Virus record (IMG/VR): IMGVR_UViG_3300033141_000942 | Span: 1-23,078 of that record | DNA length: 23,078 nucleotides | Strand: one strand, 5' to 3' | DNA from: a virus | In this document: positions 1,697-22,082 of the stretch, in pieces | Layout: each line of letters starts with the position of its first letter | Position numbering within the stretch: position 1 is the first letter of the stretch | Notes under the pieces: model-generated | What the model was told of the DNA's origin: nothing | Database searches by the model: none | What the model saw: the letters and a program-made list of their open reading frames with translations, nothing else | Made by a program: the position numbers and the translations under genes

Positions 1697-3348
1697 TGGT
1701 ACCTCAAATTACAGTCTCTATTGTATCTTGGTTATTAGAGGGTAGATTAATAAAGACCCTATCTGAAATACCTAAGTCAACTGATCTTCCTTTAAATCTT
1801 TGTCTTCAAGTCCAGGGATGTGATCAAATATCTAAAGATAGAGCTAAGGAAATTGTAGATGTTGCTTCTTCTAACTTTGTAAACTCCGATGTATTTTTTA
1901 CTGCAGGGAACAGATATATAGCAAAGACTAGAGCCAGTATTTTTAAGAGGTCAGCTAGGACACCTTTTATTTTTATGACAGACAATGATATGGTCTTTCA
2001 AGAACATACTATAGATATACTATATAACTTTCTATCTAATAAATCTAATAGTGAATATGGACTGGTTGATACAATATACAATAAACGAAAGTATCACAGA
2101 ACTGTAGATGGAACGAAAGTTATCTGTACTCCCATAACCTTTGGACATTTAAAATTTGTAGATGTTAATTTAATAGGTGGTGGCTCAATGCTTATAAGGT
2201 CTGAGGTAGCTACTATTCCTAATATAATAGACACAAGATATGATTTAGGGACTTGGGATTTTGACCTTTGCATGAATGTGAGAAAAGCTGGATGGAAGAT
2301 AGCTTCATTAAGTGATGGAAATTATGTAGCTTTAAATGATCATTCTTATAGAACAGAAGAATACAAAAAAGGAAGAGTCCCTCTTGGACTTAGATCTTTT
2401 GGAGCCAGATTATTTGAAAGTAAATGGGGATTTTCTTCTGAGTATTATCCAGAGAGCCCAAAGATAGTAAAAAGAAAAACTCCAATAAACACTGATTCTT
2501 TTATTATATCTAGAGCAATCTATACTTCCATTGGAGAAGATTTGGGAGTAGGTATTCTAAGTGAGCGTCGTCTAGAATTAATGCAGCGGTATTTCATAGG
2601 TAGTTTACGTAATCAGACTGATCCAAACTTTACTTTATATCTTTTTACAGGCCCATCAGATAATGAAGCAACTTCCAGGATTAAGTCACTTGATTATGGC
2701 AATCTTGATGTGAAATTTATCTCCATTAATGATGATTTATCAAAGTGGAAAAAGTCTGTAGATGAATCAAGAAATTGGGGAAGGGAAATAGATGAAGGAA
2801 GTCCAGAGGCTCTTGTACGTAATTATGGACATCCTAAAGCTACAATCATGGCTCGTGTTGATATAGATGATTGGGTAGCACCTGGTTGGATTGCACACAT
2901 GAAACATATGGCAATCGCTAAACCAGAATCTCACTTTCTCATTAATTATCAAGTTGTTGGTCAGGGTCCTGATGGTCGCCTTTATAAATTCTTTGCTCCC
3001 CACAATAGAGGTAGATCAAGTCCATTTCTTGCTTTGGTACAGAAGGAAGAACCACGGATTAGTCCTTATGAAGATGTGCATTTAAACATGGGAAAACTAT
3101 TTGCCTATGTATATAACATACAACCTTCCTATGTCTTCATGGTAGTTCATGAAGGAAATAGGAGTAACAGAGTTTACAAGTTAGACAGATACTTTGAGGA
3201 CATCGAGGAAAAATTAGAATTAAGGAATCAAGCATTAGTGAAGACGAAAATAGAGCCAATAAAGGTAGTAAAGCAGATACCTAAATTGATCTCAATAAAA
3301 AAACCTATCCGAGGATCTAATTGGCGAGCAAGAATGGTTAATGGATAA
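1696..3348 (+). CDS. Two-domain glycosyltransferase (GT2 plus rhamnosyltransferase-like)
   Basis: A 550-residue protein with two apparent glycosyltransferase domains. Domain 1 (about 1-240) has a GT-A start (ITVSIVSW), the metal motif T-D95-to-D98 region (MTDNDMVF), GGGSMLIRSE (161-170), GTWDFDLCMNVRKAGWK (185-201), which fits the 'ED.DL..R....G' acceptor motif, and a late His (NDH, 214-216). Domain 2 (about 267-480) begins SRAIYTSIGEDLG, continues RYFIGSLRNQTDPNFTLYLFTG, and has ARVDIDDW (387-394). This resembles the putative rhamnosyltransferase family (PF11316). The C-terminus is Lys-rich and probably disordered. It begins with a TAATG overlap. Its TAA shares its last A with the first repeated dyad element, so the cassette ends there. 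Likely role: adding two sugars in succession to a phage or host acceptor. Domain 2 is the less certain assignment. Confidence 0.78.
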   Translation: MVPQITVSIVSWLLEGRLIKTLSEIPKSTDLPLNLCLQVQGCDQISKDRAKEIVDVASSNFVNSDVFFTAGNRYIAKTRASIFKRSARTPFIFMTDNDMVFQEHTIDILYNFLSNKSNSEYGLVDTIYNKRKYHRTVDGTKVICTPITFGHLKFVDVNLIGGGSMLIRSEVATIPNIIDTRYDLGTWDFDLCMNVRKAGWKIASLSDGNYVALNDHSYRTEEYKKGRVPLGLRSFGARLFESKWGFSSEYYPESPKIVKRKTPINTDSFIISRAIYTSIGEDLGVGILSERRLELMQRYFIGSLRNQTDPNFTLYLFTGPSDNEATSRIKSLDYGNLDVKFISINDDLSKWKKSVDESRNWGREIDEGSPEALVRNYGHPKATIMARVDIDDWVAPGWIAHMKHMAIAKPESHFLINYQVVGQGPDGRLYKFFAPHNRGRSSPFLALVQKEEPRISPYEDVHLNMGKLFAYVYNIQPSYVFMVVHEGNRSNRVYKLDRYFEDIEEKLELRNQALVKTKIEPIKVVKQIPKLISIKKPIRGSNWRARMVNG

Positions 3349-3372
3349 GATTGTTTAATATTTAAACCAACT
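3348..3372 (+). promoter_or_regulatory. Repeated 25-bp dyad element, copy 1
   Basis: Left half AGATTGTTTAA, spacer TAT, right half TTAAACCAACT. The six innermost bases on each side form a perfect inverted repeat, while the outer bases of the right half have drifted. Its first base is the last A of the upstream stop codon. It lies 12 bases before the ATG of the tailspike-like gene, immediately before a GGAG ribosome binding site. It could be a promoter, operator or RNA-processing site; there is no U-run to suggest a terminator. Confidence 0.72.
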
Positions 3373-3384
3373 GGAGTAACATAA

Positions 3385-5534: not shown

Positions 5535-7079
5535 GTGGATAAGGAAACCCAACAAATACAATCTCTATGCTCAATCAGTACTCGAATGACTGCTCAAACA
5601 TTCTTCCCTGAGCGATTCTATGTACCTTTCGCTGACAATATACATGGAAAGATATTTAATCTCATAGATGGCCCTGATCAAAAAGTTGCCATTGCAGCTC
5701 CTCGTGGTTGGGGAAAGACAAGTATAGTTGCACTTGCACTTATGGCTAGGTACATATTATATCATCACACTGGATTCATCTGTTACATAAATAAGTCCCA
5801 TGATGCTGCATCACTTCAGACCGAAAACTTACGACGTGAACTTGTTAGCAATAGAATGATCAGACACTTCTTCGGTGATTTTAAATCAAGGGATGTAAAG
5901 AAAAATGAGTTTGAAGAAGTCTTCAGCAAAAAAGCTTGGGTTGCTTATGATACTCTAGTCTGGCCTCGTGGGGCTGGCCAACAAGTTCGTGGTGTTCTAT
6001 TTAAGAATGATCGACCAGGCCTGATCGTAATAGATGACTTAGAAGACCCTGAAAGAATCAAGAATGATGAGATACGTAAAGGGTGGTATGAGTGGCTATA
6101 TGCTGATGTTATTAAAGCATTACCTAGAGTAGGTGACATGGCTAAGAAATGTAAAATAGTCTACATTGACACACTTAAGCATGAGGACTCTGTCCTTCAA
6201 AAACTACTCACTTCTAATGAATGGAAGTCAATTCGTCTTGAGGCCTGTGATGATGACTTTCATTCTACTGCTCCTGCCTTTATGTCAGATGAAGACATAA
6301 TGAAGGAGTGGGAGGAACATCAAGCAAGTGGTCAAACTGATGTGTTCTTTCGTGAGTTACGTAATCTTCCGATTTCAACTAAGGATTCAGCATTTCAGAC
6401 CCAGTACTTTCATTATTACAACTTACCATCTGACAAGACTGTTGGTGAACTTGACCTTAAAAAGATCGACGTTGACATTCAGCAAGATAGAAACATCGAA
6501 ACTGTAGTAATTCTTGACCCTGCTAAGACTGTCAAGATTCACTCTGCTGAAAGTGCTATTATAGGAATAGGGATTGATCTTACATCTGCTAAAATCTACA
6601 TTAGGGATATAGTCTCAAAGAAGATGTATCCAGATGAAATCTACGATGAACTCTTTGGTATGGGTATACGATTAGGTGCAAAAGTATTAGGGATTGAGGA
6701 GACTTCCCTAAATGAGTTTATCAGACAACCTATCAAAAATGAGATGTTTAGACGTGGAACGTTCTTTGAACTTATCTGGTTAAAAGCCAGAGGTGGGATG
6801 AAGAAGGAGCTTCGTATTAAGGAACTTGTACCTTATTATCGAGGTAGTTATATCTATCACAATGCTTCATGTGTTAATGTTAAGAAGTTAGAACAACAAC
6901 TTCTAATGTTTCCTCGTTCTGCTCTTTGGGATATAATGGATGCTGAGGCTTACATCATTGAGATGCTTGAGTTAGGCGAACGATACTTTAGTCCAAATGA
7001 TAATCCAGATGATATTGAATCTGAGTATAAAGAGCTTGAATATGATGAGCCTGTTGAAAACTGGAGGGTTGCAGTATGA
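5535..7079 (+). CDS. terL: Terminase large subunit (packaging ATPase and nuclease)
   Basis: A 514-residue DNA-packaging motor that uses ATP to drive the genome into the prohead and cuts concatemers. The ATPase domain has Walker A APRGWGKT (55-62), Walker B LIVIDDLED (163-171, D167/D168, E170) and a coupling motif VYIDTLKHEDS (209-219). The nuclease domain has acidic residues in ILDPAKT (D328), GIEET (E388/E389) and WDIMDAEAY (D466/D469), the RNase H-like three-cluster arrangement. Length is normal for the family. It starts with GTG behind AAGGAG. Its TGA overlaps the next ATG (ATGA). Unusually, the gene before it is a tailspike-like gene and no small terminase subunit is seen next to it. Identification is secure; the packaging type (cos, pac or direct repeats) cannot be told from this. 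Confidence 0.96.
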   Translation: MDKETQQIQSLCSISTRMTAQTFFPERFYVPFADNIHGKIFNLIDGPDQKVAIAAPRGWGKTSIVALALMARYILYHHTGFICYINKSHDAASLQTENLRRELVSNRMIRHFFGDFKSRDVKKNEFEEVFSKKAWVAYDTLVWPRGAGQQVRGVLFKNDRPGLIVIDDLEDPERIKNDEIRKGWYEWLYADVIKALPRVGDMAKKCKIVYIDTLKHEDSVLQKLLTSNEWKSIRLEACDDDFHSTAPAFMSDEDIMKEWEEHQASGQTDVFFRELRNLPISTKDSAFQTQYFHYYNLPSDKTVGELDLKKIDVDIQQDRNIETVVILDPAKTVKIHSAESAIIGIGIDLTSAKIYIRDIVSKKMYPDEIYDELFGMGIRLGAKVLGIEETSLNEFIRQPIKNEMFRRGTFFELIWLKARGGMKKELRIKELVPYYRGSYIYHNASCVNVKKLEQQLLMFPRSALWDIMDAEAYIIEMLELGERYFSPNDNPDDIESEYKELEYDEPVENWRVAV

Positions 7080-7264
7080 TTGACTGGAAAGAACTACTAG
7101 CTCCAATAGCATTGCCTTTAGCTTGGATGGGATCACTTGAATGGAGATTACGTTCAAAGGTCAGTGACAAAAGATTTGATGATTACAAGGGGTATATTAA
7201 AGAAAGATTTGATGGTCAGAAAAAGCAACTTGATAGAATTGAAAATCACTTAAATGATAAATAA
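7076..7264 (+). CDS. Small protein with N-terminal hydrophobic segment and coiled coil
   Basis: A 62-residue protein with no family I can name. Residues 6-21 (ELLAPIALPLAWMGSL) are hydrophobic but broken by two prolines. Residues 27-60 are highly charged with heptad-like spacing (FDDYKGYIKERFDGQKKQLDRIENHL), a likely coiled coil. Small hydrophobic-plus-coiled-coil proteins near phage terminases or lysis genes are common, and XhlA-like proteins have a similar charged segment but with the membrane helix at the other end. It overlaps terL by ATGA and is probably coupled to it. Its stop codon TAA shares its last base with dyad copy 2. Confidence 0.6.
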   Translation: MIDWKELLAPIALPLAWMGSLEWRLRSKVSDKRFDDYKGYIKERFDGQKKQLDRIENHLNDK

Positions 7265-7288
7265 GATTGTTTAAATTTTAAACAATCT
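7264..7288 (+). promoter_or_regulatory. Repeated 25-bp dyad element, copy 2 (perfect palindrome)
   Basis: The most symmetrical of two perfect copies: AGATTGTTTAAA, one central T, then TTTAAACAATCT, 12 bp on each side without mismatch. It begins on the last A of the upstream TAA and ends 14 bases before the next ATG, just ahead of the GGAGG. Together with copy 3 it brackets the block 7303-11616. Confidence 0.75.
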
Positions 7289-9161: not shown

Positions 9162-9881
9162 ATGAAGCGATTACTTTTAATTATACTTTCAATCTTCTTC
9201 CTTGCAAGCATTGTCTGTGCCAAAGGTGTCTATTACTATGCTGGGGAGACGGTAACGGGTGCTGTTGGCTGGTCATGCCCTGGCACAAACAGTGATATTC
9301 TTTGCGATGATTTCGATGGTGGTGCTGATCTTGTTTGGTCAGAAACCGAAACTAATGGCACAATAACCTTTCAAAATGATCGGATGGAGATTATTGCAAC
9401 AGGGGCAGCATGTTGGGCATCTACCGATTATGGTAGTGCTATTACAACTCACTATACCAGTTTCAAATTTACTTTAGTTTCTGAAAGTCTTGGTAGTGGT
9501 GGTGATGATTTTATTGCCCATGCTTCTGTAATAAATGGTGACGGCACTCCCGCCTGGTCTTGTCGAATAATAGAGGATGCTTCAAATCAACACGCAATGC
9601 AATTTAGGCATCTTGATGATGCTTGTAGTGGCTGGATTTCGACAACTTCGGCTTACGATTTGGCATTAAGCACAGAATATACAATAAAAATAGCATATAC
9701 CCACGCCTCAGTGTCTTACTATGTTTATGGTAACAGTGATAATGGATTAATAGGCACATCTAATGATGTATGTGACCGTGATCCTCAATATTGGTTGTTT
9801 GGAGAAGATAGTAATGATGCAGCAATAACCTTTTATATAGATGGGTTTCAAACAGATGATGACACTATGCCGACTTATTAA
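9162..9881 (+). CDS. Secreted lectin-like (concanavalin A-type) protein
   Basis: A 239-residue protein with a strong signal peptide (MKRLLLIILSIFFLASIVCA, cut before KGV). The Cys there is preceded by Val and does not make a good lipobox. The mature part begins with a short linker, then a jelly-roll pattern: ILCDDFDGGADLVW, MEIIATGAAC, TSFKFTLVSESLGSGGDDF, a Trp-rich middle, YTIKIAYTH and a closing ITFYIDGFQTDDD. This is the strand order of LamG/concanavalin A-like sugar-binding domains. Six cysteines in the mature part fit export to an oxidising compartment. AAGGTGA sits five bases before the ATG. It overlaps the next gene by 26 bases. Likely role: binding glycans outside the cytoplasm, either on the virion or released. 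No catalytic glutamates of a glucanase stand out. Confidence 0.68.
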   Translation: MKRLLLIILSIFFLASIVCAKGVYYYAGETVTGAVGWSCPGTNSDILCDDFDGGADLVWSETETNGTITFQNDRMEIIATGAACWASTDYGSAITTHYTSFKFTLVSESLGSGGDDFIAHASVINGDGTPAWSCRIIEDASNQHAMQFRHLDDACSGWISTTSAYDLALSTEYTIKIAYTHASVSYYVYGNSDNGLIGTSNDVCDRDPQYWLFGEDSNDAAITFYIDGFQTDDDTMPTY

Positions 9882-11616
9882 ATTCTTATTTGTATTTCTT
9901 TTATTTACTACTCCTGCGTGGGGAGCTGATTTTACAGTCTGTAACGCCGGCTGTGACGAAACAACCATTCAGGCGGTGTTTAATAACAATGACTTAGCTC
10001 CTGGTGATGTAGTAGAAGTACGGGCCGATACCCCTGGAGGAAGCAAAACGTATTCTGAAATGGTAGAGCCTGGGTCAAACGATGTGGGAGATGCTGGGAG
10101 TCAACTTACCCTTCAAGCTCGTTCAGGAGATACGATCACAATTGATGGAGGAAATTCCAGAGCACACGGAATAGTCCTCAGTGGCAGATCATACTTCACT
10201 TTAGACGGATTTCATTTTGATAACTGTACGGCCCAGGTGGTGTACGTTGCGACTGCCGCCACAGGTGTTATTCTCCAAAACTTAACCATAGTCCAGGACT
10301 TGAATGCTGCTTCTGATACTTGTGATGGAATTACGTTTATTGAGCAGACTAATAGTGTTATTGATAACTGCGATATTAGGCACAGTGCCGAGGTCAACTG
10401 CGTATATGCAGCCGATAGCATCAAGGTCACTGGAGGCTCTGGTAATACGGTTAAATATTGTTACCTCGAACATAAGAGCACTAACACAGACCGCCACAAT
10501 GACGGTATTCAGATGTGGAATGATACCGATTTCACTGTCTATGGCAATGAGATCAATCACGCAATCAGTGGTGGCAGAATGCAGGGAATCTATATGGAGG
10601 GAGTAGGTGTTGGCAATTATGGAACATGGTTATGCTATAATAATCTGTTATACGGTGCAACATGGCAATCTTCCGCTATTAGATTACGCCCCAAAGATGC
10701 TACTGCCATTGTCAGATGTTACAACAATACCTCTATTGTTATTGATTCATCAGGACAAGCCGCTTTCATGGAAGGGTCTGATGGTGGTGCCGATAATACA
10801 ACAATGTATGCGTATAACAATGTATTTATTCACTTGAATGCTGGAAATATTTCTCAGCCTGTAACGTATGCCGATGGAGTAAATCCTGGAAATGTAGATA
10901 ATAATTGTTACTATAGGGCAGGACACTCAGCTACAACTTATGGTGGTAGTGATATAAATACAGACCCTTCTTTAGACGCCAGTTACTATCCCGATGATTC
11001 AGGTGATCCTGTGGTAGATACAGGAAAAGATTTGAGTGGAACCTTTACAATCGACAAAGATCAAGTATCCCGCCCTCAAAGTACAGATTTTGATATGGGT
11101 TGCTATGAATATACTGGTACAGCAGCCCCTACAGGCACACTTGTTGTTGCAGGGGGAATTGTTGAGAGCGACGTTGTAACTGGTGCAAAAACACTTGTCC
11201 TTACCTTAGATGGCACGACATGGGATGCAGATATAGGCACTACTGGGGCTGAACAAACTGCTTTAATAGCAGGGATAACATCGAACAAAGCAGAGGCAGG
11301 AGGATGGAATACAATAGTCAGGGATGATTATGGAGTTGGATGGACTGACACTGGAGCCGAAGTAGTAAGAAATAGCGATACGGTATTAACAATTACGCTC
11401 CCTGCATTTGCAGCCTACGAAATTACTGCATCGGAAACCATAACTGTTACCATAGCTTCAACCTGTGTAGCAAGTGCAACAGAGATAGTGGCAGACCCAC
11501 CATTTATTATCTCGGTTGACACCTTGCCTGATGTAACTGGTGTAGGGTGGTATTTTACAGCAGGGGGACAAGCAGCAACTAAAACCACGGGTGGATTAGC
11601 AATAACATCACCATAA
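9856..11616 (+). CDS. Signal-peptide-bearing beta-helix protein with C-terminal Ig-like domain
   Basis: About 586 residues from the ATG at 9856; ATGs at 9841 and 9859 are also possible and none has a good ribosome binding site, so coupling to the upstream gene is likely. The signal peptide is LIKFLFVFLLFTTPAWG before ADF. The body has right-handed beta-helix rungs (ITIDGGNSRAHGIVLSG, YFTLDGFHFDNCT, GVILQNLTI, NSVIDNCDIRH, NTVKYCYLEH, DGIQMWNDTDFTVYGNEI, AIVRCYNNTSIV, TMYAYNNVFI). The helix ends in FDMGCYEY, the 'DIGAYEY'-type close seen in bacterial secreted beta-helix proteins. An Ig-like domain follows (GAKTLVLTLDGTTWDADI, SDTVLTITLPAFAAYEITASETITVTI). It looks like a bacterial surface-polysaccharide protein fused to a phage-type beta domain. 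Role: probably polysaccharide binding or cleavage; no active site was identified. Confidence 0.74.
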   Translation: MMTLCRLIKFLFVFLLFTTPAWGADFTVCNAGCDETTIQAVFNNNDLAPGDVVEVRADTPGGSKTYSEMVEPGSNDVGDAGSQLTLQARSGDTITIDGGNSRAHGIVLSGRSYFTLDGFHFDNCTAQVVYVATAATGVILQNLTIVQDLNAASDTCDGITFIEQTNSVIDNCDIRHSAEVNCVYAADSIKVTGGSGNTVKYCYLEHKSTNTDRHNDGIQMWNDTDFTVYGNEINHAISGGRMQGIYMEGVGVGNYGTWLCYNNLLYGATWQSSAIRLRPKDATAIVRCYNNTSIVIDSSGQAAFMEGSDGGADNTTMYAYNNVFIHLNAGNISQPVTYADGVNPGNVDNNCYYRAGHSATTYGGSDINTDPSLDASYYPDDSGDPVVDTGKDLSGTFTIDKDQVSRPQSTDFDMGCYEYTGTAAPTGTLVVAGGIVESDVVTGAKTLVLTLDGTTWDADIGTTGAEQTALIAGITSNKAEAGGWNTIVRDDYGVGWTDTGAEVVRNSDTVLTITLPAFAAYEITASETITVTIASTCVASATEIVADPPFIISVDTLPDVTGVGWYFTAGGQAATKTTGGLAITSP

Positions 11617-11667
11617 TAAACTAATTCCCCTCACTCCCACAAATGAGGGAAGGGCCGCAAAGATCAA

Positions 11668-11683
11668 GGGTGTCGATACACCC
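11668..11683 (+). other. Perfect 6-bp hairpin with CGAT loop
   Basis: GGGTGT pairs exactly with ACACCC across a four-base CGAT loop. It lies five bases before dyad copy 3 and about 40 bases before the cysH start. It is strong for its length, but no partner sequence identifies a riboswitch class. Confidence 0.6.
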
Positions 11684-11688
11684 ATCAC

Positions 11689-11713: not shown

Positions 11714-11723
11714 AGAGGATAGT

Positions 11724-12407: not shown

Positions 12408-12670
12408 TGAAGTGGAGAAAGATAAGGATATGGATCTTAGCATGTCAAGGAATAGTTTATAGATGTTTTATAATATGCTGTAATACCACCTTCTTCTTGA
12501 TAGGGATTAGATCTATGTCAAATATATTTGGTGAAGTATCTTTTACCAATGCTCTGAAATATGCTTTTGGAGTTAGCTTAACATGGAATGTTATTAACAC
12601 TGTTTTATATTTTCTATTCCATTATATCTATGCTAGAATGTATAAGTTAGGGACAAACAATGGCAACTAA
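12407..12670 (+). CDS. Two-helix membrane protein, DUF2061-like
   Basis: An 87-residue protein with a basic start (MKWRKIRIW) and two hydrophobic helices, about 19-36 and 49-72. The order IVYRC..I..NTTFFLIG, an ALKYA segment and NTVLYFLFHYIYARMYKLG matches the plan of DUF2061 proteins ('WR...T', small central loop, 'K..LYY.HE.W'), though the final HE-W is only partly kept (FHYIYARMY). DUF2061 domains are known beside or fused to sulfate-activation genes, which supports the match because this gene starts on the stop of cysH (TAATG). Possible role: helping sulfate or sulfite handling at the membrane; this is inference from neighbourhood. It overlaps the following fibre gene by 11 bases. Confidence 0.66.
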   Translation: MKWRKIRIWILACQGIVYRCFIICCNTTFFLIGIRSMSNIFGEVSFTNALKYAFGVSLTWNVINTVLYFLFHYIYARMYKLGTNNGN

Positions 12671-13571: not shown

Positions 13572-13583
13572 GGAGAATAATTA

Positions 13584-15530
13584 ATGCCTTACATTGTAAC
13601 AGGTGAACCAAATAGTTGGAGAGACGAGGATTATAGGGAGAAGAACTTTGACTATAAATATCCTTATGATCTTGACTTAAGACCAGACTCAGACTTCCAT
13701 AAAAAACTACGTGGAAAGATCTGGGAAAGGGCCAGCACTGCCAGAAATGAGATAAGTAAGAGATTCGATTCTTGGAATAAGATAGACTGGACATTAACTA
13801 CCTACATTCCATTGAAAGATAAGGAAAGTAAACTTAAGAAAACTGACTCAACAAAGCCAGTTTCTATAGTATTCCCTTATACCTATTCCAACCTTGAATC
13901 ATTATTAACTTACTTATCCCTAGCATTTTTCCAAGACCCCATGTTTCAATATGAAGGTGTGGAAGATGATGATACAATAGGTGCTATGTTAATGGAACTT
14001 ATTATAAGCCTTCATTGTACCAAGACTAAAGTACCTCTTGCAATCCACACTGTTCTAAGAGACGCACTTAGTTATGGAGTAGGTATTGGAATACCTAGCT
14101 GGGTAACTAAGTATGGAAAGAGGCCTATCAAATCCTCAGTGTCCAGAATATCCGATCTTGGAAGAACATCTGAGAGTTACGTAGACTGGGTTGATGACTT
14201 GTTATTTGAAGGCAATTCACTCTTCAATGTAGACCCTTACATGTGGTTACCTGATCCTTCTGTCTCTACTAACAATATCCAAGATGGTGAATTCTTTGGG
14301 TGGGTTGAGAAGGACAACTATATGAATCTTCTTAGTGAGGAAGGCCAGTCTCACTCTGGTTTATTCAATGTTAAGTATTTGGAAGGGAAGAAGAATAAAC
14401 TATCAGCGTTGTCTAAGAATCAATCTGAAAGACAAACTAAATTTGGTGGCTCATCTGAATCACACAGATCAATGAGTAGTACTTCAAGACCTATTGATTT
14501 AATAAGAATGTATGTGAATCTAATCCCTAAGGAATGGAAATTGTCTGATAGTGAATATCCAGAAAAGTGGTTCTTTACCCTTGCATCTGATGATGTTATA
14601 GTTGGATGCGAAAAGGCTGACCATAGTCATGGAATGTATCCTGCTGCAGTTGCTAGTCCTGAAGCTGATGGTTATTCAATTACGCCAGTTAGTAGAATTG
14701 AAATTATGTATGGTTTGCAAGGTGTGCTTGACTTCATGTTCAACTCACATGTAACTAATGTTCGAAAAGCTATCAATGACATGTTGATAGTTGATCCATT
14801 CCTTGTAAATATAAAGGACCTTGAAGATCCAAGCCCAGGTAAATTAATAAGGTTACGAAGACCTGCGTGGGGAAGAGGAGTTGACAAGGTTGTACAGCAA
14901 CTTCAAGTAAATGATATAACAAGGGCTAACATTTCTGACTCTGCTTACATCACACAGTGGATGGATAGAATAAGTGGTGCTGATCAATCTATGCAAGGTG
15001 CACTTCGCCAGGGAGGCCCTGAACGATTGACTAAAGGTGAATTCCAAGGTACACGTGGAAGTGCTATTTCAAGACTCCAACATATTGCTATGATGGTAGG
15101 TATGCAATTCTTTCAGGATATAGGTACTATGTTTGCAGTTCACACACAACAGTACATGACCCAAGATTCCTATATCCGTGTAGTTGGCAGGCAAGAAGAA
15201 CAATTAAAGAAGATGTTTGGAAAGGAACGTGTTAAAGTATCTCCATATGAACTGGCTGTTAACTATGACTTAATTGTAAGGGACGGTTCAATTCCTGGTA
15301 CTAACATTGAGGCAATGACTCAGATGTGGCAGGTTATAGCAACAACACCTGAACTCCATCAAGAGTTTGATACATTTAGAATGTTCATGTATATAGCGAA
15401 ACAACTTGGAGCTAAGAATCTTGACGACTTCAGACGTAATGTGAATAGGATTCAACCAACTACAATGTCTGATGAGGAAGTTGCGAATCAAGTTGAGAAG
15501 GGTAACTTAGTTCCGACTGGAGAGATATAA
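13584..15530 (+). CDS. Portal protein (head-tail connector)
   Basis: A 648-residue protein in the usual portal place, before the scaffold and capsid genes. It should form the dodecameric ring at the special vertex through which DNA is packaged and ejected. Seen: an alpha-helical N-terminal region (KKLRGKIWERASTARNEISKRFDSW, split by charged turns), a clip/stem region including YGLQGVLDFMFNSHVTNVRKAIND, RPAWGRGVDKVVQQL, SDSAYITQWMDRISGADQSMQGAL, and the Thr/Gly-rich GTRGSAISRLQHIAMMVGMQF helix typical of the crown and tunnel area of short-tailed phage portals. Length fits podovirus portals. A GAGGAGA site precedes the ATG by about seven bases. The stop overlaps the next start (TAATG). There is no nucleotide-binding motif, as expected. 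Identification rests on pattern and position. Confidence 0.86.
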   Translation: MPYIVTGEPNSWRDEDYREKNFDYKYPYDLDLRPDSDFHKKLRGKIWERASTARNEISKRFDSWNKIDWTLTTYIPLKDKESKLKKTDSTKPVSIVFPYTYSNLESLLTYLSLAFFQDPMFQYEGVEDDDTIGAMLMELIISLHCTKTKVPLAIHTVLRDALSYGVGIGIPSWVTKYGKRPIKSSVSRISDLGRTSESYVDWVDDLLFEGNSLFNVDPYMWLPDPSVSTNNIQDGEFFGWVEKDNYMNLLSEEGQSHSGLFNVKYLEGKKNKLSALSKNQSERQTKFGGSSESHRSMSSTSRPIDLIRMYVNLIPKEWKLSDSEYPEKWFFTLASDDVIVGCEKADHSHGMYPAAVASPEADGYSITPVSRIEIMYGLQGVLDFMFNSHVTNVRKAINDMLIVDPFLVNIKDLEDPSPGKLIRLRRPAWGRGVDKVVQQLQVNDITRANISDSAYITQWMDRISGADQSMQGALRQGGPERLTKGEFQGTRGSAISRLQHIAMMVGMQFFQDIGTMFAVHTQQYMTQDSYIRVVGRQEEQLKKMFGKERVKVSPYELAVNYDLIVRDGSIPGTNIEAMTQMWQVIATTPELHQEFDTFRMFMYIAKQLGAKNLDDFRRNVNRIQPTTMSDEEVANQVEKGNLVPTGEI

Positions 15531-15838
15531 TGGAAGAAGACACTATAAGATCAACTAAGAGTCAAATAGAAGAATTCAAGGAATCTTTCATATGGTTAGA
15601 TATTGTTGATGAGTTAAACAAACTATCTACCAATGCCCAACGTGAATATGATATAGTGGGGGAATCTCACGTTGATGATGAAGGGTATAAGATAGTACCT
15701 AATTCATCTGAAACATTAATTCATCTTGGAGATATAAAGGGTAGAAGAAAAGCAGTTAGTTATTTTCTAAGTATTCCTGATATCTTCTTACAAATTTTGG
15801 AGGGCCAGAAAGATGAGTCTAAACGTAAACAAACCTGA
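15530..15838 (+). CDS. Small phage protein after portal, unknown function
   Basis: A 102-residue, mostly helical, acidic protein. It opens EEDTIRSTKSQIEEFKESFIWLDIVDELNKL, a likely amphipathic helix, and ends with GDIKGRRKAVSYFLSIPDIFLQILEGQK. The plan 'F..S..W.D+..EL' followed by 'GR..A+.Y.L.+P..+L' is often seen in small proteins directly downstream of phage portal genes. It may assist portal or head assembly, but that is inferred only from place. It starts by TAATG coupling to the portal gene, and its last 26 bases overlap the next gene. Confidence 0.66.
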   Translation: MEEDTIRSTKSQIEEFKESFIWLDIVDELNKLSTNAQREYDIVGESHVDDEGYKIVPNSSETLIHLGDIKGRRKAVSYFLSIPDIFLQILEGQKDESKRKQT

Positions 15839-16274
15839 AGATCAAGTTACGGTGAGTGAACTTCCTTCGTATATTAGGGAAGACAGAGTAGCTATAAATG
15901 CTGTATCTGGAGCTGGTAATGTAGGGGATACAGTATTAGAGATTGCTGGTGGAGTTACTTCATTAACCATAGGTACTGACCTTGGTCTTTATGGCTATGA
16001 GACTGTAAAGATCTCTGGATTAGCTGCAGTGACAATAGCAACTATCCTTGGAGGCTCTGAAGGTCAGGTAAAGATATTTGTATTTCAAGATGCAAATGTT
16101 AAATTTACAGATGGAGCCAAAGCAGACGGTAAACTTTACCTCAATCACTTACCTGCATTGTCTGATTTTAGTCCACAACAAGATGATGTTATAGCATTGA
16201 TAAACATTGGAGGTGATGGAGCCTCTGAACATGGCTATTGGAAGGAATTATATAGGACTATTTCAGTCAAATAA
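15813..16274 (+). CDS. Probable virion surface/decoration protein
   Basis: A 153-residue protein rich in beta strands and small residues. It begins with PEDQVTVSELPSYIREDRVAINAV, a start seen on other phage structural proteins ('SYIRE.R.AIN'). It then has alternating Gly/Val/Thr stretches (GDTVLEIAGGVTSLTIGTDL, GLAAVTIATILGG, VKIFVFQDANVKFTDG) and ends in GYWKELYRTISV. No enzymatic motif. A GGAGGG site (15799-15804) lies eight bases before the ATG, inside the previous gene. It probably decorates the head or forms part of a fibre base. The stop shares its last A with dyad copy 4. Confidence 0.62.
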   Translation: MSLNVNKPEDQVTVSELPSYIREDRVAINAVSGAGNVGDTVLEIAGGVTSLTIGTDLGLYGYETVKISGLAAVTIATILGGSEGQVKIFVFQDANVKFTDGAKADGKLYLNHLPALSDFSPQQDDVIALINIGGDGASEHGYWKELYRTISVK

Positions 16275-16298
16275 GACCGTTTAATATTTAAACTAACT
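16274..16298 (+). promoter_or_regulatory. Repeated 25-bp dyad element, copy 4
   Basis: Left half AGACCGTTTAA, spacer TAT, right half TTAAACTAACT. The inner 6+6 bp pair perfectly. The outer left half carries CC where copies 1, 2, 3 and 5 have TT. It begins on the last A of the upstream TAA and ends 11 bases before the scaffold ATG. Confidence 0.72.
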
Positions 16299-16299
16299 T

Positions 16300-16304
16300 G
16301 GAGG
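16300..16304 (+). promoter_or_regulatory. Ribosome binding site fixing the scaffold start at 16310
   Basis: GGAGG lies five bases before ATG 16310. A longer reading from a TTG at 16298 would translate this site and the end of the dyad element, so it is rejected. Confidence 0.85.
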
Positions 16305-16309
16305 TTAGC

Positions 16310-17158
16310 ATGGACGAACATCTTAAACAGATTCAAAAGGACGTAGATGATATGAATAAGACTCTTGAAGGTCAGGTAGTTACTACTGCTCCTGGGACTG
16401 AGGTACCTAAAACTCAGGCTCCAGGAACTAATGCTCCAGGAACAGATACACCTGGCACTGATGCTCCTAAAACGGATGCCCCTAAAACAGAAGTACCATC
16501 TACAGAAGTACCTACAACTGAAGCTCCTGAGGAGAATTTTGAGGATAGACTTACGAAGGAAAATGAGGCTTTACGTAAACGAATAGAGGAAATGTCAGGA
16601 GGGCACACTAAGGCACCTGGAACGTCAGCTCCTAAAACTGCTGCACCAGGTACTGAACCGCCTATTAGTGAGTATGATTTTCTTGGTAATAAAGACTTGG
16701 ATGAACTGACAAGGGATCCTAAAGAGTTTAATAAACTACTCAATGAGATCTATGCCAAAGCTGTAAAGGATACCAAGGGAACTATGACTGAGGGAGTTCT
16801 TCGATCTATACCTGATATAGTGAAAACTAATGTACTTGCAGTTACTGAATTGAAGAAAGCCAGTGATCAATTCTACAAAGATAATGAGGATCTAGCTCCA
16901 TTTAAGAAAGTTGTAGGTATTGTATTTGAAGAACTAGCTGCCTCAAGTCCAGATAAAAAGTATAGTGAAATTCTTAATGAAGTTGCAACTGAGGCACGTA
17001 ATAGATTAGAACTCCACAGGAAAACAATTAAGGATGATAAGAACAAACATCCAAATTTGCCTAATAAAAGAAATCAACAAAGGCAAACACAAACTAAACC
17101 CAATCTCACTGGAATAGAAAAAGAGATTGATGCAATGAACGAAACACTTAATCAATAA
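16310..17158 (+). CDS. Capsid scaffold protein with mucin-like APxT repeats
   Basis: A 282-residue acidic protein just upstream of the capsid gene, likely guiding capsid assembly. Residues 1-22 form a charged helix (LKQIQKDVDDMNKTLEG). Residues 27-76 are ten tandem pentapeptides of the form (A/V/T)P-x-T-(D/E/N/Q), the last one imperfect. About 77-96 is a coiled coil (EDRLTKENEALRKRIEEM). Residues 102-116 add three more pentapeptides. About 125-240 is helical (FLGNKDLDELTRDPKEF and onward). A basic, Gln/Asn-rich linker (about 240-264) leads to the last helix, LTGIEKEIDAMNETLNQ (266-282), typical of scaffold C-termini. That last helix resembles the first one (8 of 15 identical). The repeats are unusual for a scaffold, which is normally removed from the mature head. 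If this is instead a retained head protein, the repeats could be exposed on the surface. Confidence 0.76.
   Translation: MDEHLKQIQKDVDDMNKTLEGQVVTTAPGTEVPKTQAPGTNAPGTDTPGTDAPKTDAPKTEVPSTEVPTTEAPEENFEDRLTKENEALRKRIEEMSGGHTKAPGTSAPKTAAPGTEPPISEYDFLGNKDLDELTRDPKEFNKLLNEIYAKAVKDTKGTMTEGVLRSIPDIVKTNVLAVTELKKASDQFYKDNEDLAPFKKVVGIVFEELAASSPDKKYSEILNEVATEARNRLELHRKTIKDDKNKHPNLPNKRNQQRQTQTKPNLTGIEKEIDAMNETLNQ
16388..16537 (+). repeat. Ten tandem APxT-type pentapeptide codon repeats
   Basis: Fifteen-base units coding for (A/V/T)P(G/K/S/T)T(D/E/N/Q), ten in a row with the last unit imperfect (APEEN). Codon choice varies between units (gct/gca/gcc, cct/cca), so the array is old or selected at protein level. 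Every Thr has Pro three residues downstream in the next unit. Confidence 0.85.
16613..16657 (+). repeat. Second block of three APxT pentapeptide repeats
   Basis: Three more units (APGTS, APKTA, APGTE), separated from the first array by a coiled-coil segment of about 25 residues in the same protein. Confidence 0.8.
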
Positions 17159-17172: not shown

Positions 17173-17598
17173 ATGTCTTTAGAAGATAGAGGAGCACAAC
17201 ACGACAAAGTTCCTGTTGACAAGTATCATGATCCTAATGCGGATTATGCTATGACTACCAGGGACTATGTAATGCGTCCTTCAGCAGATGGGGATTCAGG
17301 TGCTATTACTTTAACATTGCCACCTGTTGCTGAGGCGAAAGGTAGATTTTATTCTATCATAGTCCGCAATGCGGATGCTGTTAATACTGTTACTATCCAA
17401 GATCAAGATGACAGTGAATGTTGGATTGGTGATGTAGTACTTAACGGTAAGTGTGATCGAGCACTTTTTTACAGTGACGGTCTTGCTTGGCATCCCTTTG
17501 CAAATCCTGGTGAGTGGCCTGGAGTGAGTACAACTGTTCCACCTGGAACAACTCCTACTCCTACTACCCTAGCGCCTACTACATCAGCACCACAATAA
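17173..17598 (+). CDS. Small beta-rich head protein with Pro/Thr-rich tail
   Basis: A 141-residue protein between scaffold and capsid genes, the usual place for a head decoration protein. Residues about 40-110 form a compact beta domain (GAITLTLPPVAEAKGRFYSIIVRNADAVNTVTI, ECWIGDVVLNGKCDRALFYSDGLAWHPFA) of the kind seen in phage spike, fibre and decoration proteins. Residues 119-141 are a low-complexity tail of Pro, Thr, Ser and Ala (TTVPPG, TPTPTTLAPTTSAP), related in style to the APxT repeats of the preceding gene. GGAGG precedes the ATG by about eight bases. Likely role: binding the capsid outside, with the tail exposed. The tail would be a good O-glycosylation or adhesion segment; that is inference. 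Confidence 0.66.
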   Translation: MSLEDRGAQHDKVPVDKYHDPNADYAMTTRDYVMRPSADGDSGAITLTLPPVAEAKGRFYSIIVRNADAVNTVTIQDQDDSECWIGDVVLNGKCDRALFYSDGLAWHPFANPGEWPGVSTTVPPGTTPTPTTLAPTTSAPQ

Positions 17599-17604: not shown

Positions 17605-17629
17605 AGATTGTTTAAAATTTAAACAATCT
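17605..17629 (+). promoter_or_regulatory. Repeated 25-bp dyad element, copy 5 (perfect palindrome)
   Basis: AGATTGTTTAAA, central A, TTTAAACAATCT: 12 bp on each side without mismatch. It lies 21 bases before the major capsid ATG, the longest spacing of the six, with CGGAGGA between. It is the only copy lying free on both sides between two genes besides copy 3. Confidence 0.75.
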
Positions 17630-17650: not shown

Positions 17651-18955
17651 ATGTTTTTAGGGATGAGAGGAACTGGTGATTGGGTTACAGGTCAAAGACC
17701 CATGAACTGGAGACAGCAAATATTGAAACTGTATCCAAATGGTATGGCTCCACTTACTGCAATCTTAAGTATGTTGAGCTCTGAGAAAGTAGATGATCCA
17801 CAGTTTCATTGGTGGACTCAGACAATGAGTTCTGTTAGTGGAGCAGTTGCTGGTATCTATACCGTTGCTGATCTGTCAGTTGCTTATACAGTTCCTGGAG
17901 CAGCTGGGAATTCAGTCTTTATTCAAACAACAGATACAAATGTCTTTAACCGTGTCAGGCAAGGCCATGAAATTCTACTTCGTGATGCTAGTGACTATCG
18001 AGTTGATGTAGTCGGAAAAGTCACTGAGGTTCATCGTGGTGCTGTTTCGGAAGTCTATGCAGTTAGACTTCTTGAAGCTGATGATAACTCACCTGACCAT
18101 AATCTTACCAACTGTGACACATTTAGAATCATCGGTAACATTAACCCTGAGGGTGGCGAGATGCCAGATGCCATTGCTCTAAACCCTGTGAAGGTTTACA
18201 ACCTTACTCAGATATTCAGAACCCCACTATCCATTACTCGAACTGCTCGAAAGACTAAGCTTCGTACTCCTGATGATTATCAGAAGGCTAAGTCCGAAGC
18301 TCTTGAAATGCACTCGTGGGAAATGGAACTTGCGTATCTCTGGGGAATTATGTCTGAGAATATCGGAGATAATGGTAAGCCTGAACGTACCACTAGAGGT
18401 CTCATCAACTTCATCCGCCAGTACGCAGCAGCTAATTGTGATGACTATACTTTGAACACTACATATGCAGGTCAGACTTGGGCAGCTGGTGGTGAAGTAT
18501 GGTTCAAGAATATGCTTGAGCAAATCTTTCGTTATGGTGCAGATGAGAAATTAGCACTTGTCGGTTCTGGTGCCTTACTAGGCATTGATGCTTTGGCAAT
18601 GACTGGTGGTCAGATTAACCTTCAACCTGCCCAGAAAACCTACGGTATGGATATCCGTAAGTGGATTACTCCTTTTGGGACTATCAACATGAAGACCCAC
18701 CCACTTTTCAGTTATGATGTTACCACTCGTCATATGATGGTTATTCTGGAGCCTAAGGAAATAGGAAATAGGTTCATCGACGATACTGCGTTCTATGGCG
18801 AATCTTCTTCGAAGTCTCATCCTGAGGGATATGGGCAAAGGAGAATTGATGGTACTAATGAGGAGTATTTGACTGAATCTGGTCTTGAATTTGGTCTGCC
18901 TCAAAAGTGTGCTGTACTTAATGGAGTTGGTCTGCCTAATGGCTTAACGCCATAA
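17651..18955 (+). CDS. Major capsid protein, SU10/DUF5309-like (HK97 fold)
   Basis: A 434-residue capsid subunit that builds the icosahedral or elongated head. Seen: N-terminal MNWRQQILKLYPNGMAPLTAILSML (18-42), a beta segment NRVRQGHEILLRDASDYRVDVVGKVTEV (100-127), and the family's clearest phrase NLTQIFRTPLSITRTARKTKLR (184-205), followed by a long helix KAKSEALEMHSWEMELAYLWG (212-232) and NGKPERTTRGLINFIRQ. This matches the SU10 major head protein family of short-tailed phages with elongated heads, and the length is in its range. GGAGG precedes the start and dyad copy 5 lies just upstream, fitting strong late expression. G+C is higher here than in the sugar-transferase genes (27 of 60 in 17941-18000 by hand count), as is common for highly expressed genes. 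Confidence 0.88.
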   Translation: MFLGMRGTGDWVTGQRPMNWRQQILKLYPNGMAPLTAILSMLSSEKVDDPQFHWWTQTMSSVSGAVAGIYTVADLSVAYTVPGAAGNSVFIQTTDTNVFNRVRQGHEILLRDASDYRVDVVGKVTEVHRGAVSEVYAVRLLEADDNSPDHNLTNCDTFRIIGNINPEGGEMPDAIALNPVKVYNLTQIFRTPLSITRTARKTKLRTPDDYQKAKSEALEMHSWEMELAYLWGIMSENIGDNGKPERTTRGLINFIRQYAAANCDDYTLNTTYAGQTWAAGGEVWFKNMLEQIFRYGADEKLALVGSGALLGIDALAMTGGQINLQPAQKTYGMDIRKWITPFGTINMKTHPLFSYDVTTRHMMVILEPKEIGNRFIDDTAFYGESSSKSHPEGYGQRRIDGTNEEYLTESGLEFGLPQKCAVLNGVGLPNGLTP

Positions 18956-18984
18956 GCTAACCTCCTGTAGACCAAGACAATTAA

Positions 18985-19707: not shown

Positions 19708-19708
19708 A

Positions 19709-20197: not shown

Positions 20198-21612
20198 GAG
20201 AATATGAACTTATCATAGATGAGGGTATAAGAAAAGGCCTTAGTCCTGAAAGATCTATTCCAATGAATGAGGATTGGTTATGGCAGACTCTTGGATTTAG
20301 GATTGGTAAGGCAGGCCTTGAAGGGTATGTAATCTGTAATGATGATCCACTTATTGGTGTAGTTGATATAGATTACTCTTGGCCTTTTCCTCAATTCATT
20401 GTAGGTGAGAGGTATAACTTTTTAATCTCCAGAGATTCAATAGTTGACCTTGAAGATAATGTATATTTAATATCAGATGATTATGTGGCTACTCACATAT
20501 TTGACATAGACCAATTAACCTTTGGCACTGGGACTTTAATGGAAGTTGCAGACTTCGGTGAGTATGCCTTTATGACTAATGGAGTTATAATGATCTATTG
20601 GGATACTGGACTTGCCGACTGGCATGAGATTATAGCAAGTGCAACTATCCCTATGATGAGAACTATATGTAACTTCAAAGGTCAAGCAGTAGGCGGGAAC
20701 ATAGTAAGTGCATGGCATGACTGTGATGAGAAGTCATATGTATGGTCTAAGATTGGCGAGATGGACTTTACACCTGATAGACGGAATACCTCAGGTTATC
20801 GTAGAGATCCTTATGGCGGGGAAGTCTATCATGTGAGAAGACTTGGAGACCAGGTAGTTGGTTATTCATCTAAGGGAATTACTCTCATGACGCCTGTCAG
20901 TGAGCCTGCTGCAACTTTTGGGTTTGGTGAAATGGATGATGTAGGACTTATTAACATGGGAGCTATGGATGGTGATCTTAGACGTCATGTTTATGTGGGG
21001 TCTGACTATATACTGCGAGATATCTCACTGCAAGGAGAACTAGTAAAGAAATATGATGTTAGGGAACTTGGATATTATAGATACATGAAGGAACTTGAAG
21101 GTGAAGATATTATAGTTAAATATGATAGAATTAAGAAGGACTTTTACATAGGTAATAGTACAAAGACTTACTTACTTTCACCTTATGGTTTGACGGAAGT
21201 CCCACAGCATCCTTCTGCTTTATGGACTATGAGTAACTATGATGAAGAGACTACCATGTTACCTAATACAGTGGATGACTATACGCCTTCAATCACATCT
21301 TCAATATTCGACTTTGGGTATAGAGGACAGAAGACTATATTCTCAGTGGAATCAGATGCATTGATTACCTTTGGTGCTAAAGCATTAATTGGATGGGCTA
21401 ATACATTAGCTGTCTGGGGATATACAAATGAAGTATCTTTAAACAATGAAGGTATAGCAGCTGTCATTGTATCAGGTAATGAATTTGTAGTTAAGTTAAA
21501 CTTTGATTATGTTGGAGGTACTTTACCTATAAAGTATATAAAGGTTCGTTACAAGATGACTGACTTACGAGGAATTCGGGGCATCTATGCTCCACCTCTA
21601 CGAGGACAATAA
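20194..21612 (+). CDS. Beta-propeller-like tail nozzle / DNA-stabilisation protein
   Basis: A 472-residue protein. Most of it is built of repeating four-strand units with aromatic and Gly turns: GERYNFLISRDSIVDLEDNVYLIS, GEYAFMTNGVIMIYWD, GQAVGGNIVSAWHD, HVRRLGDQVVGYSSKGITLMTP, HVYVGSDYILRDISLQG, KDFYIGNSTKTYLLSPYGL. A final beta domain follows (FDFGYRGQKTIFSVESD to IKVRYKMTDLRGIRGIYAPPLRG). This is the architecture of propeller proteins in short-tailed phages, such as P22 gp10 or T7 gp12 counterparts, that extend the tail below the adaptor and keep DNA inside. The order adaptor, small beta-protein, propeller protein fits. ATGA overlap upstream, TAATG overlap downstream. The exact counterpart is uncertain. 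Confidence 0.7.
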   Translation: MREYELIIDEGIRKGLSPERSIPMNEDWLWQTLGFRIGKAGLEGYVICNDDPLIGVVDIDYSWPFPQFIVGERYNFLISRDSIVDLEDNVYLISDDYVATHIFDIDQLTFGTGTLMEVADFGEYAFMTNGVIMIYWDTGLADWHEIIASATIPMMRTICNFKGQAVGGNIVSAWHDCDEKSYVWSKIGEMDFTPDRRNTSGYRRDPYGGEVYHVRRLGDQVVGYSSKGITLMTPVSEPAATFGFGEMDDVGLINMGAMDGDLRRHVYVGSDYILRDISLQGELVKKYDVRELGYYRYMKELEGEDIIVKYDRIKKDFYIGNSTKTYLLSPYGLTEVPQHPSALWTMSNYDEETTMLPNTVDDYTPSITSSIFDFGYRGQKTIFSVESDALITFGAKALIGWANTLAVWGYTNEVSLNNEGIAAVIVSGNEFVVKLNFDYVGGTLPIKYIKVRYKMTDLRGIRGIYAPPLRGQ

Positions 21613-22082
21613 TGTTAACACAACTAATACCTGACCAGGTATCTAAATTCTGGGATGTAATAAAGTATGGTATTGAGGAATCATTACCTCCTATTGTGAG
21701 TGAACATCCTGACAGGATGAATAGAATTCTATCTTCATTGCTGTGTTATAAGATTCAATGTTGGGTCTCGTATACAAGGAGTGATACCACTAAGTTTGAA
21801 GGATTAGTTCTAACGAGAGTACTATATGATGATGCTACTGATACAAGAAACTTACTTATATATTGCCTCTATGGATATAATGAGACTAACGCTCAGACTT
21901 GGACTGATGGACTATTGTCACTAGCCAAGTATGCACAGTCTAAAAGATGCAATCGGATTATAGCATATAGTGATGTCCCTTATATTGTAAGTCTAGTAGA
22001 AAAGTTAGGTGGGGAAGCTAAATATACTTTCCTCTCATTTGATACCAAACAGACCGTTCAAAATTTAAACAATCTCATGTGA
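21612..22082 (+). CDS. GNAT-like acyltransferase-fold phage protein
   Basis: A 156-residue protein. It begins IPDQVSKFWDVIKYGIEESLPPIV (6-29), then has KIQCWVSY, FEGLVLTRVLYDDATDTRNLLIYCLYGYN (a long beta pair with a hairpin), a helix TWTDGLLSLAKYAQSKRCNRIIAYSD, and VEKLGGEAKYTFLSFD. The layout (strand pair, helix, strand, then 'lGg....yt.ls.d') is that of GNAT folds as seen in a phage-specific group encoded among tail genes. The acetyl-CoA loop (R/Q-x-x-G-x-G/A) is not visible, so it may be structural and not catalytic. TAATG overlap with the propeller gene. The last nine codons are formed by dyad copy 6, so the C-terminus (TVQNLNNLM) is partly dictated by that DNA element. Confidence 0.68.
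   Translation: MLTQLIPDQVSKFWDVIKYGIEESLPPIVSEHPDRMNRILSSLLCYKIQCWVSYTRSDTTKFEGLVLTRVLYDDATDTRNLLIYCLYGYNETNAQTWTDGLLSLAKYAQSKRCNRIIAYSDVPYIVSLVEKLGGEAKYTFLSFDTKQTVQNLNNLM
22051..22075 (+). promoter_or_regulatory. Repeated 25-bp dyad element, copy 6, inside a coding end
   Basis: Left half AGACCGTTCAA, spacer AAT, right half TTAAACAATCT; one mismatch in the inner stem (C instead of T). It lies within the last codons of the GNAT-like gene and 14 bases before the ATG at 22090. Its presence inside coding sequence while keeping 23 or so of the consensus positions argues for selection on the DNA or RNA. Confidence 0.7.

Follow-up and report, generated by a model that had tools for sequence, protein, structure and literature searches.

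Dyad copies in the 23-kb window

The window analysed here, a stretch of 23,078 nucleotides, is a 23-kb piece of the late arm of a phage genome. Six copies of a 25-bp dyad had been reported in it by a first-pass annotation, and all six were verified in position and sequence. The first (AGATTGTTTAATATTTAAACCAACT, 3348-3372) lies between the stop codon of ORF 1696-3348 and a start at 3385, and the second (AGATTGTTTAAATTTTAAACAATCT, 7264-7288), the arms of which are perfect, between the stop codon of ORF 7076-7264 and a start at 7303. The third (AGATTGTTTAATAATTAAACTAACT, 11689-11713) precedes ORF 11724-12407, the product of which is PAPS-reductase-like, and the fourth (AGACCGTTTAATATTTAAACTAACT, 16274-16298) is located between the stop codon of ORF 15813-16274 and a scaffold-like gene (ATG at 16310). 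The fifth, again with perfect arms (AGATTGTTTAAAATTTAAACAATCT, 17605-17629), stands before the major capsid gene (17651-18955); the sixth (AGACCGTTCAAAATTTAAACAATCT, 22051-22075) overlaps the 3' end of ORF 21612-22082 and precedes ORF 22090-23043. As previously described, the 3' ends of these six copies are 10-21 bases ahead of a start codon and the three-base spacer is free. In three copies (3348, 7264 and 16274) the last base of the preceding stop codon is also the first base of the dyad. The copies had been said to all point the same way; the element is a near-palindrome, so its orientation carries little meaning, and no strand is assigned to it here.

The list of six was incomplete. A seventh copy (AGTTAGTTTTATGATTAAACGATCT, 578-602) was found inside the coding ORF 234-1223; it scores 25.6 with a matrix built from the other six, a value reached in none of 1,000 shuffles (99.9th percentile of the shuffle maximum, 18.7), and 20-24 bits with matrices from four relatives, which were built without this copy. 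When the core GTTTAANNNTTAAAC was searched with up to two mismatches, 10 matches were obtained in the window versus 2.1 ± 1.4 in shuffles, and 10 matches were reached in 0 of 100 shuffles. The GC content of the window is 0.386, and the phages of the dyad group are AT-rich.

Distribution of the sites in related phages

The dyad, AGWYYG-core-NNN-core'-CRRWCT, was found to be common to approximately 60 related phage contigs, and the 26 fullest contigs have a mean of 16.9 copies per genome, whereas shuffled sequence gave 0 and reversed sequence 0.2. The inner core differs between phages (GTTTAA, GTTCAA, ATTAAA, TATAAA, GTCCAA, GATCCA and others), and matrices made from one core mostly failed on genomes with another. 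The question raised earlier, whether close relatives lack the element at the same loci, proved informative: a dyad is often present at the same place, but with a different core. Three contigs (L233, L264 and L265) were initially classed as dyad-less, an assignment dropped once a 23-bp version, CTTYGTTT-N7-AAACRAAG, was found in them (5-9 matches vs 0.6-0.8 in shuffles); L266 and L279 displayed no convincing dyad family. The GTTTAA pattern was also run against the GTDB genome collection, which yielded 12 scattered stretches and no lead to a host.

The apparent placement of the element before late genes turned out to be an effect of the window, as full-length relatives carry copies in their early and late arms, in convergent gaps and within genes. 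Out of 439 sites, 279 are located in co-directional gaps, at a median of 16 bp ahead of a start. Convergent gaps contain 29 sites; dyads occupy 20% of the divergent, 33% of the convergent and 48% of the co-directional gaps. Entry into coding sequence occurs mainly within one very long gene, which offers no gap: 17 of 21 genomes have one to three sites inside a gene of more than 1300 aa, and site density is 2.24 per 10 kb in genes of at least 4 kb, as opposed to 0.04 in genes of 1-2 kb. The sites are also spaced more evenly than chance, the coefficient of variation being 0.58 versus chance values of 1.09 and 0.92. We attribute the position before start codons mostly to the squeezing of a fixed 25-bp sequence between a stop codon and a Shine-Dalgarno sequence in a packed genome; given the number of sites in co-directional gaps and their short distance to a start, they may also have a role in expression.

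A ParB-methylase fusion and its covariation with the core

The candidate binder of the dyads is a phage fusion protein composed of an N-terminal ParB-type CTPase domain, a helix-turn-helix (HTH) and a C-terminal N6/N4 DNA methyltransferase. ParB_N is present in 19 of 22 genomes. Two named phages with a ParB_N-methylase (LS06 and VS-ABTNL-3) carry a dyad family of this kind, whereas no comparable family was seen in named phages without ParB_N (PaP2, Kuura and CRP-810); Microcystis phage Mel-JY34 has the fusion and no evident dyad family. The early arm is outside the window, where no copy of the fusion gene is therefore seen, and a ParB-methylase fusion gene in the window phage itself is deduced from relatives with the same core (e.g., G004, G006 and L021). 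Among 24 genomes, 16 have a dyad within 33 bp of the fusion gene; this is about what general gap occupancy gives, and is not taken as evidence.

Structure matches of the fusion were to Noc, ParB, KorB and N4/N6 methylases, and an AlphaFold model of moderate confidence (pLDDT 71.9) placed the HTH helices at residues 138-145 and 149-164. The usual C-terminal dimerisation domain of ParB is not present, an N6_N4 methylase standing in its place, and dimerisation of the fusion is assumed. In 48 sequences, taken solely from the loci collected in this analysis and excluding the LS06 database record, R63, R64, E97 and N98 are invariant and E62, R101 and D103 nearly so (the GERR and ENxxRxD boxes); the methylase DPPY and GSG motifs are likewise invariant or nearly so in the fusion alignment. 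CTP binding, clamp closure and sliding by the fusion are plausible on the basis of these conserved boxes. No ParA-like AAA_31 protein, a partner expected in classical ParABS systems only, was detected in 17 relatives, the control being positive in 14 of 14 genomes. This type of fusion protein is already known: in the part available of a recent survey, fusions of ParB-CTPase folds to N6_N4 methylases are described as frequent in phages, and for a bacterial ParB-fold protein fused to a SAM-dependent methyltransferase the nucleotide bound was ATP, not CTP (PMC12704722). We found in the literature neither a description of the DNA sites of the phage fusions nor experiments on binding, nucleotide use or methylation in this fusion family.

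To identify residues associated with the core, 6,811 alignment columns from 27 protein families were ranked; residue 154 of the fusion came first, residue 158 third and residue 155 eighteenth, while a neighbouring ribbon-helix-helix-like family gave no link to the core. In 61 of 61 contigs, base -6 can be predicted from residue 154: Q is accompanied by A, R by G, and any other residue (K, D, N, G, P, S and T among them) by T. This specificity code emerged from the genome set and was then extended to contigs fetched later. The association of a base other than T at -6 with Q or R at residue 154 involves at least six changes on a tree from which the HTH columns were left out. Independent pairs are few (4-6, the four on well supported branches all being concordant) and tree support is moderate, and Fisher p-values therefore overstate independence. 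In addition, C at -4 goes with E or D at residue 159 (10 of 15 vs 1 of 46). Residue 154 sits in the motif GKTKGHV, which matches the GKS-R/Q173 of ParB/Noc, where experiments have shown that R at residue 173 recognises G and Q recognises A (PMC7383237); the code derived here from aligned sequences matches the experimental one at this corresponding residue. Binding of the fusion to the dyads is a prediction strongly supported by covariation.

The first-pass annotation had remarked on the lack of paired changes among the outer bases, and over 615 copies positions -10 and -8 were indeed found to pair in 49% and 45% of cases, versus 98% for -6; its preference for recognition of half-sites in DNA over RNA covariation is supported. 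Two RHH-like early proteins, of 84 and 254 aa, were considered as the trans factor and rejected: the strands of both are alike across phages that differ in core, and the 84-aa family displayed no association with the core.

Interpretation, alternatives and known systems

We propose that the dyads are very probably the DNA sites of a phage ParB-CTPase-HTH-methyltransferase clamp, distributed in the manner of parS or KorB-operator loading sites. A dimer of the fusion would read both half-sites in DNA, with recognition-helix residue 154 reading base -6, and adjoining helix residues reading -7 and -4; the outer AG/CT would probably be read by a conserved part of the protein. With about 17 sites, one per roughly 2.7 kb, NTP-bound clamps could load along the whole phage genome and slide outward, and either the methyltransferase or the clamp itself would cover the genome in full; the purpose may be modification against restriction, or protection or organisation of the DNA. 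Physical binding, NTP-dependent clamp loading, sliding, genome-wide methylation and this purpose are what we infer from the computed site family, its distribution, the core switching, the helix covariation and the intact ParB and methyltransferase motifs. The full scenario, in which a lytic lineage spaces parS-like sites genome-wide, sliding methyltransferase clamps processively modify or coat all of the DNA, and site and helix switch together, is offered tentatively.

One alternative is that the fusion is a KorB-like regulator, which represses or roadblock-tunes the individual transcription units, with the methylase in a secondary role. Most sites do lie in co-directional gaps right ahead of genes, KorB, a clamp of the ParB family, acts as a repressor at some distance from the operators it binds (PMC11790492), and the skeleton of the dyad fits the KorB operator. 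However, occupancy is lowest in divergent gaps, in which promoters would be expected, sites are present in convergent gaps and in the long virion gene, and a promoter scan of the window yielded sigma-70-like matches without excess over shuffles; we consider this explanation unlikely. More doubtful still is a VirB-like anti-silencing function, in which clamps spread from the dyads and strip host nucleoid silencers off the phage DNA. The AT-richness of these phages and the even, genome-wide loading would fit such a function, and VirB is described, in the parts available of two reports, as a ParB-like CTP-dependent protein that antagonises H-NS and has a loading site (PMC10770331, PMC10653881), but the invariant catalytic motifs of the methylase are left unexplained.

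The six-pair stem, the three-base spacer and the placement just ahead of the Shine-Dalgarno sequence had earlier suggested a late-gene or N4-type hairpin promoter, and would also suit a promoter for a phage single-subunit RNA polymerase. This is highly improbable: searches of 17 related genomes for T7-type PF00940 were negative (the T7 control being positive in a second run), no RNA polymerase was matched in a Pfam search of the large ORFs of G001, sites occur in convergent gaps and within a gene of more than 4 kb, divergent gaps are the least occupied, and core switching tracks the ParB-type HTH. The RNA-processing site also envisaged, or more generally an mRNA leader hairpin acting in processing, stability or as a translational operator, would account for the location in 5' leaders and for the dyad symmetry, but has next to no probability, as A-C mismatches along the mRNA outnumber G-T (199 vs 117), opposite to the expectation for a hairpin, pairing at -10 and -8 is seen in only about half of the copies, and sites are present inside genes. 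Immunity sites or stoperators of a temperate phage repressor, which are likewise dispersed and, in the immunity groups of mycobacteriophages, differ in sequence from one close relative to the next, are hardly credible given that no tyrosine integrase was found in 17 relatives, that the closest named phage, LS06-2018-MD01, is predicted to be strictly lytic (PMC10370329), and that known stoperators are asymmetric and monomer-bound (PMC9283540).

The proposal of clamp loading sites concerns ParB-methylase fusions in one phage family, and the layout of the sites points to genome-wide loading over gene control. The model is concrete and can be tested quickly, as it names the DNA bound, the residue to swap and the place to seek methylation. 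It also carries a caution: a dyad that precedes a start codon in a compact phage genome is not necessarily a promoter or a translation signal.

Several known systems share features with the one described here. Promoters of the N4 virion RNA polymerase also have a short stem with a three-base spacer; unlike them, the dyads are not restricted to early genes, occur within genes and in convergent gaps, and no polymerase was found with PF00940 in 17 relatives or with Pfam in the large ORFs of G001. The SAS and ESAS of cluster K mycobacteriophages, the trans factor of which is unknown in the report describing them, are also dispersed short repeats directly before gene starts, and ESAS are also inverted repeats with a half-site consensus that varies between phages (PMC3203893). 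Membership in this group was rejected: SAS is an asymmetric sequence (GGGATAGGAGCCC) at gene starts, half of them with the ESAS as 17-bp imperfect inverted repeats tied to them, whereas the phage element is an odd-centred 25-bp dyad, and sequences and host group both differ. The phage ParB-CTPase-N6_N4 fusions surveyed in PMC12704722 belong to the same architecture class, and the available part of that survey gives neither DNA sites nor a function for them.

KorB of plasmid RK2 also combines a ParB-type CTPase fold with an HTH and has several OB sites per replicon; its operator, TTTAGC[C/G]GCTAAA (PMC2680271), is odd-centred and has the TTTA-N5-TAAA skeleton in common with the phage dyad. Unlike KorB, the phage protein has a C-terminal DNA methylase and its putative site is 25 bp long with an outer AG/CT box; unlike KorB operators, the phage sites extend into a long gene and are spaced with a regularity above that of chance. 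ParB-parS and Noc-NBS differ in having even-centred 16-bp sites and ParA or membrane partners, as opposed to the lack of a detected ParA-like AAA_31 protein here, and the phage residue 154 also takes on K, D, N, G, P, S and T with a T base. Common to both is a corresponding recognition-helix residue (173 there, 154 here) that reads the half-site, in the phages as indicated by covariation, with R paired to G and Q to A. The phages would provide a natural specificity code, extending over dozens of contigs, at the very helix position studied by experiment in ParB/Noc.

Dyad copies in the window and in related phages

The first-pass annotation had listed six copies of the 25-bp dyad, at 3348-3372, 7264-7288, 11689-11713, 16274-16298, 17605-17629 and 22051-22075, and all six positions were borne out in the window sequence, a 23-kb virus record with the late arm, in which terminase, portal and capsid genes were identified. 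The GTTTAANNNTTAAAC core, allowing up to two mismatches, matched the window 10 times, compared to 2.1 in shuffles. A seventh copy was found at 578-602, inside ORF 234-1223; it scores 25.6 with the six-copy matrix (99.9th percentile of the shuffle maximum, 18.7; 1,000 shuffles) and ranks seventh in the window by the matrices of four relatives.

The region 234-3348 contains two glycosyltransferase-like ORFs and one methyltransferase-like ORF, none of the three with a PHROG match. A PAPS-reductase-like auxiliary metabolic gene (11724-12407; PHROG 424, E 9e-24) lies amid the structural genes, and a scaffold-like protein (16298-17158) contains threonine/proline/alanine-rich repeats (TEAPGTDTP...), which recur in the C-terminal tail of the following protein (17173-17598).

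Among viral contigs, the element pattern matched 66 stretches and a capsid protein search yielded 80 loci; 26 full or long contigs and the nearest named phage, Desulfofustis phage LS06-2018-MD01, were taken for comparison. An inverted-repeat census, run blind to the window motif, revealed that many genomes carry their own repeated dyad, with a shared odd centre and a different sequence. Once centre-aligned, nearly all families have in common the 25-bp frame AGWYYG-core-NNN-core'-CRRWCT; in three contigs (L233, L264 and L265) the frame is 23 bp, and two others (L266 and L279) yielded no convincing family. Among 615 copies pooled from 61 contigs, positions -12 and -11 (numbered from the dyad centre) are A and G, respectively, in 98% each, and the two halves pair in 98% at -6 and in about half at the outer positions -10 and -8. 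When elements were called with matrices refined contig by contig from seeds taken from the frame, the mean number of calls per genome was 16.9 in real, 0.2 in reversed and 0 in shuffled sequences. Three copies of the dyad were also observed in two 5-8 kb contigs of a Brevinema andersonii MAG (L290 and L294), which are probably binned phage contigs.

Covariation of a ParB-methylase fusion protein with the core

A conserved early gene of the phage family encodes a protein in which a ParB-CTPase domain, an HTH and an N6_N4 methylase are fused; over 48 sequences the catalytic motifs of its two halves are fully or almost fully conserved, and the HTH varies together with the core. Two ribbon-helix-helix-like candidates for the trans factor were rejected, as they do not change with the core, unlike the fusion HTH. 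One of the two, an 84-aa protein, adjoins the fusion gene in related contig L149 (also G001; 9557-9808) and in relatives; it occurs in 25 genomes, is strongly conserved independently of the dyad core and has no Pfam match. At 11524-14028, L149 also encodes a single polypeptide in which an N-terminal uracil-DNA-glycosylase domain (Pfam PF03167) is joined to DNA polymerase A (PF00476).

For 6,811 columns from 27 families, partial Mantel correlations with core distance were computed, controlling for genome distance. In the resulting ranking, fusion residue 154 came first (0.664), residue 158 third and residue 155 eighteenth. Six contigs (G007, G010, G015, L238, L252 and L270) combine Q at 154 with A at -6, and L261 combines R with G; Q and R are absent from all others, so that 61/61 contigs agree. 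The code also holds on contigs from a scan with the fusion protein, which yielded 59 loci, many on new contigs. Fisher values for the code disregard the relatedness of the contigs; a tree built without the HTH columns requires six changes of the -6 base, and all four independent pairs on well supported branches agree with the code, a number too small for a significant sign test. In eleven contigs residue 154 is D, N or G and the core has T at -6 preceded by A or T at -7; L248 and L262 are exceptions, showing this core type with a different residue 154. Similarly, C at -4 goes with E or D at 159 (10/15 with, versus 1/46 without).

The parS site has G at the base read by residue 173 of ParB. In ParB and Noc, where it belongs to a GKSR or GKSQ motif, this residue recognises the opening base of the half-site, R173 accompanying the guanine of parS and Q173 preferring adenine in binding assays and a crystal structure (PMC7383237). 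Phage residue 154, in GKTKGHV, occupies the same place by motif alignment, which makes its code for base -6 credible; the HMMER alignments inspected stop short of the HTH's end, and one profile match to Noc spans 7-161. In the AlphaFold model residue 154 lies within the second HTH helix (149-164; mean pLDDT 71.9). Taken together, this covariation makes it very probable that the dyads are binding sites of the fusion protein.

Among named phages, neither ParB_N nor a comparable dyad family was found in PaP2, Kuura and CRP-810 (the census covered most of the last). LS06-2018-MD01 carries six exact copies of GTCCCA-N3-TGGGAC within longer arms. In Vibrio phage VS-ABTNL-3, whose fusion is a distant one, CAATCG-N6-CGATTG occurs four times, once in a convergent gap and once within a portal-like gene. 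In Mel-JY34 the fusion is present, yet no dyad family was evident.

Layout along the genomes

The 439 elements of 26 contigs fall in co-directional gaps (283), convergent gaps (29), divergent gaps (14) and genes (110), the genes having been called with a simple script that may misplace individual starts. Occupancy of gaps of at least 20 bp was 48% for co-directional, 33% for convergent and 20% for divergent ones. In co-directional gaps the element starts at a median of -1 bp relative to the preceding stop codon and ends at a median of 16 bp upstream of the following start; it thus occupies the room between stop codon and Shine-Dalgarno. Along the mRNA, elements before gene starts in the 26 relatives display 199 A-C and 117 G-T mismatches, as though RNA hairpins ahead of the Shine-Dalgarno were avoided. 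In many relatives, strong G+C-rich, terminator-like hairpins stand upstream of the post-capsid gene, often adjoining a dyad.

Spacing is even, with a mean CV of 0.58 versus 1.09 for random gap choice and 0.92 for uniform placement; taken one by one, 23 of the 26 contigs exceed random gap choice in evenness (P < 0.05). Inside genes, element density per 10 kb is 2.24 for gene lengths of at least 4 kb, 0.46 for 2-4 kb and 0.04 for 1-2 kb; the 0.76 for genes under 1 kb may be inflated by false small ORFs. A gene of more than 1,300 aa is present in 21 genomes, and in 17 of them it carries one to three elements, at differing codons (375 to 826). Because elements are evenly spaced and also lie inside long genes, their distribution speaks for a spacing requirement and argues against a role linked to gene starts.

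Possible role and comparison with known systems

ParB and KorB form sliding clamps that depend on NTP and load at their own sites (PMC11790492). By analogy, it is reasonably likely that the fusion protein loads as a clamp and slides; given the few kilobases between sites, clamps of this kind could cover the whole phage genome, and the methylase part would modify the DNA, perhaps against restriction. Genome-wide methylation is tentatively proposed as the purpose. It is possible that the same fusion protein controls transcription or acts in anti-silencing. Partition and lysogenic immunity are unlikely, since neither a ParA-like AAA_31 protein nor a tyrosine integrase was found in 17 relatives and LS06-2018-MD01 is predicted to be strictly lytic (PMC10370329).

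We found no earlier report of the dyad elements in the open-licence literature. In the parts of a 2025 survey drawn on here, fusions of ParB-CTPase folds to N6_N4 methylases are described as common among phages, with anti-defence or host interaction suggested for them; those parts give no DNA sites for the fusions (PMC12704722). Foldseek matches to the fusion protein comprise methylases (CcrM and N4-cytosine methylases) as well as Noc, ParB and KorB. The KorB operator, TTTAGC[C/G]GCTAAA, has the TTTA-N5-TAAA skeleton in common with the phage dyad (PMC2680271). The closest published parallel found is that of the SAS/ESAS elements of cluster K mycobacteriophages, which the dyads resemble in layout.
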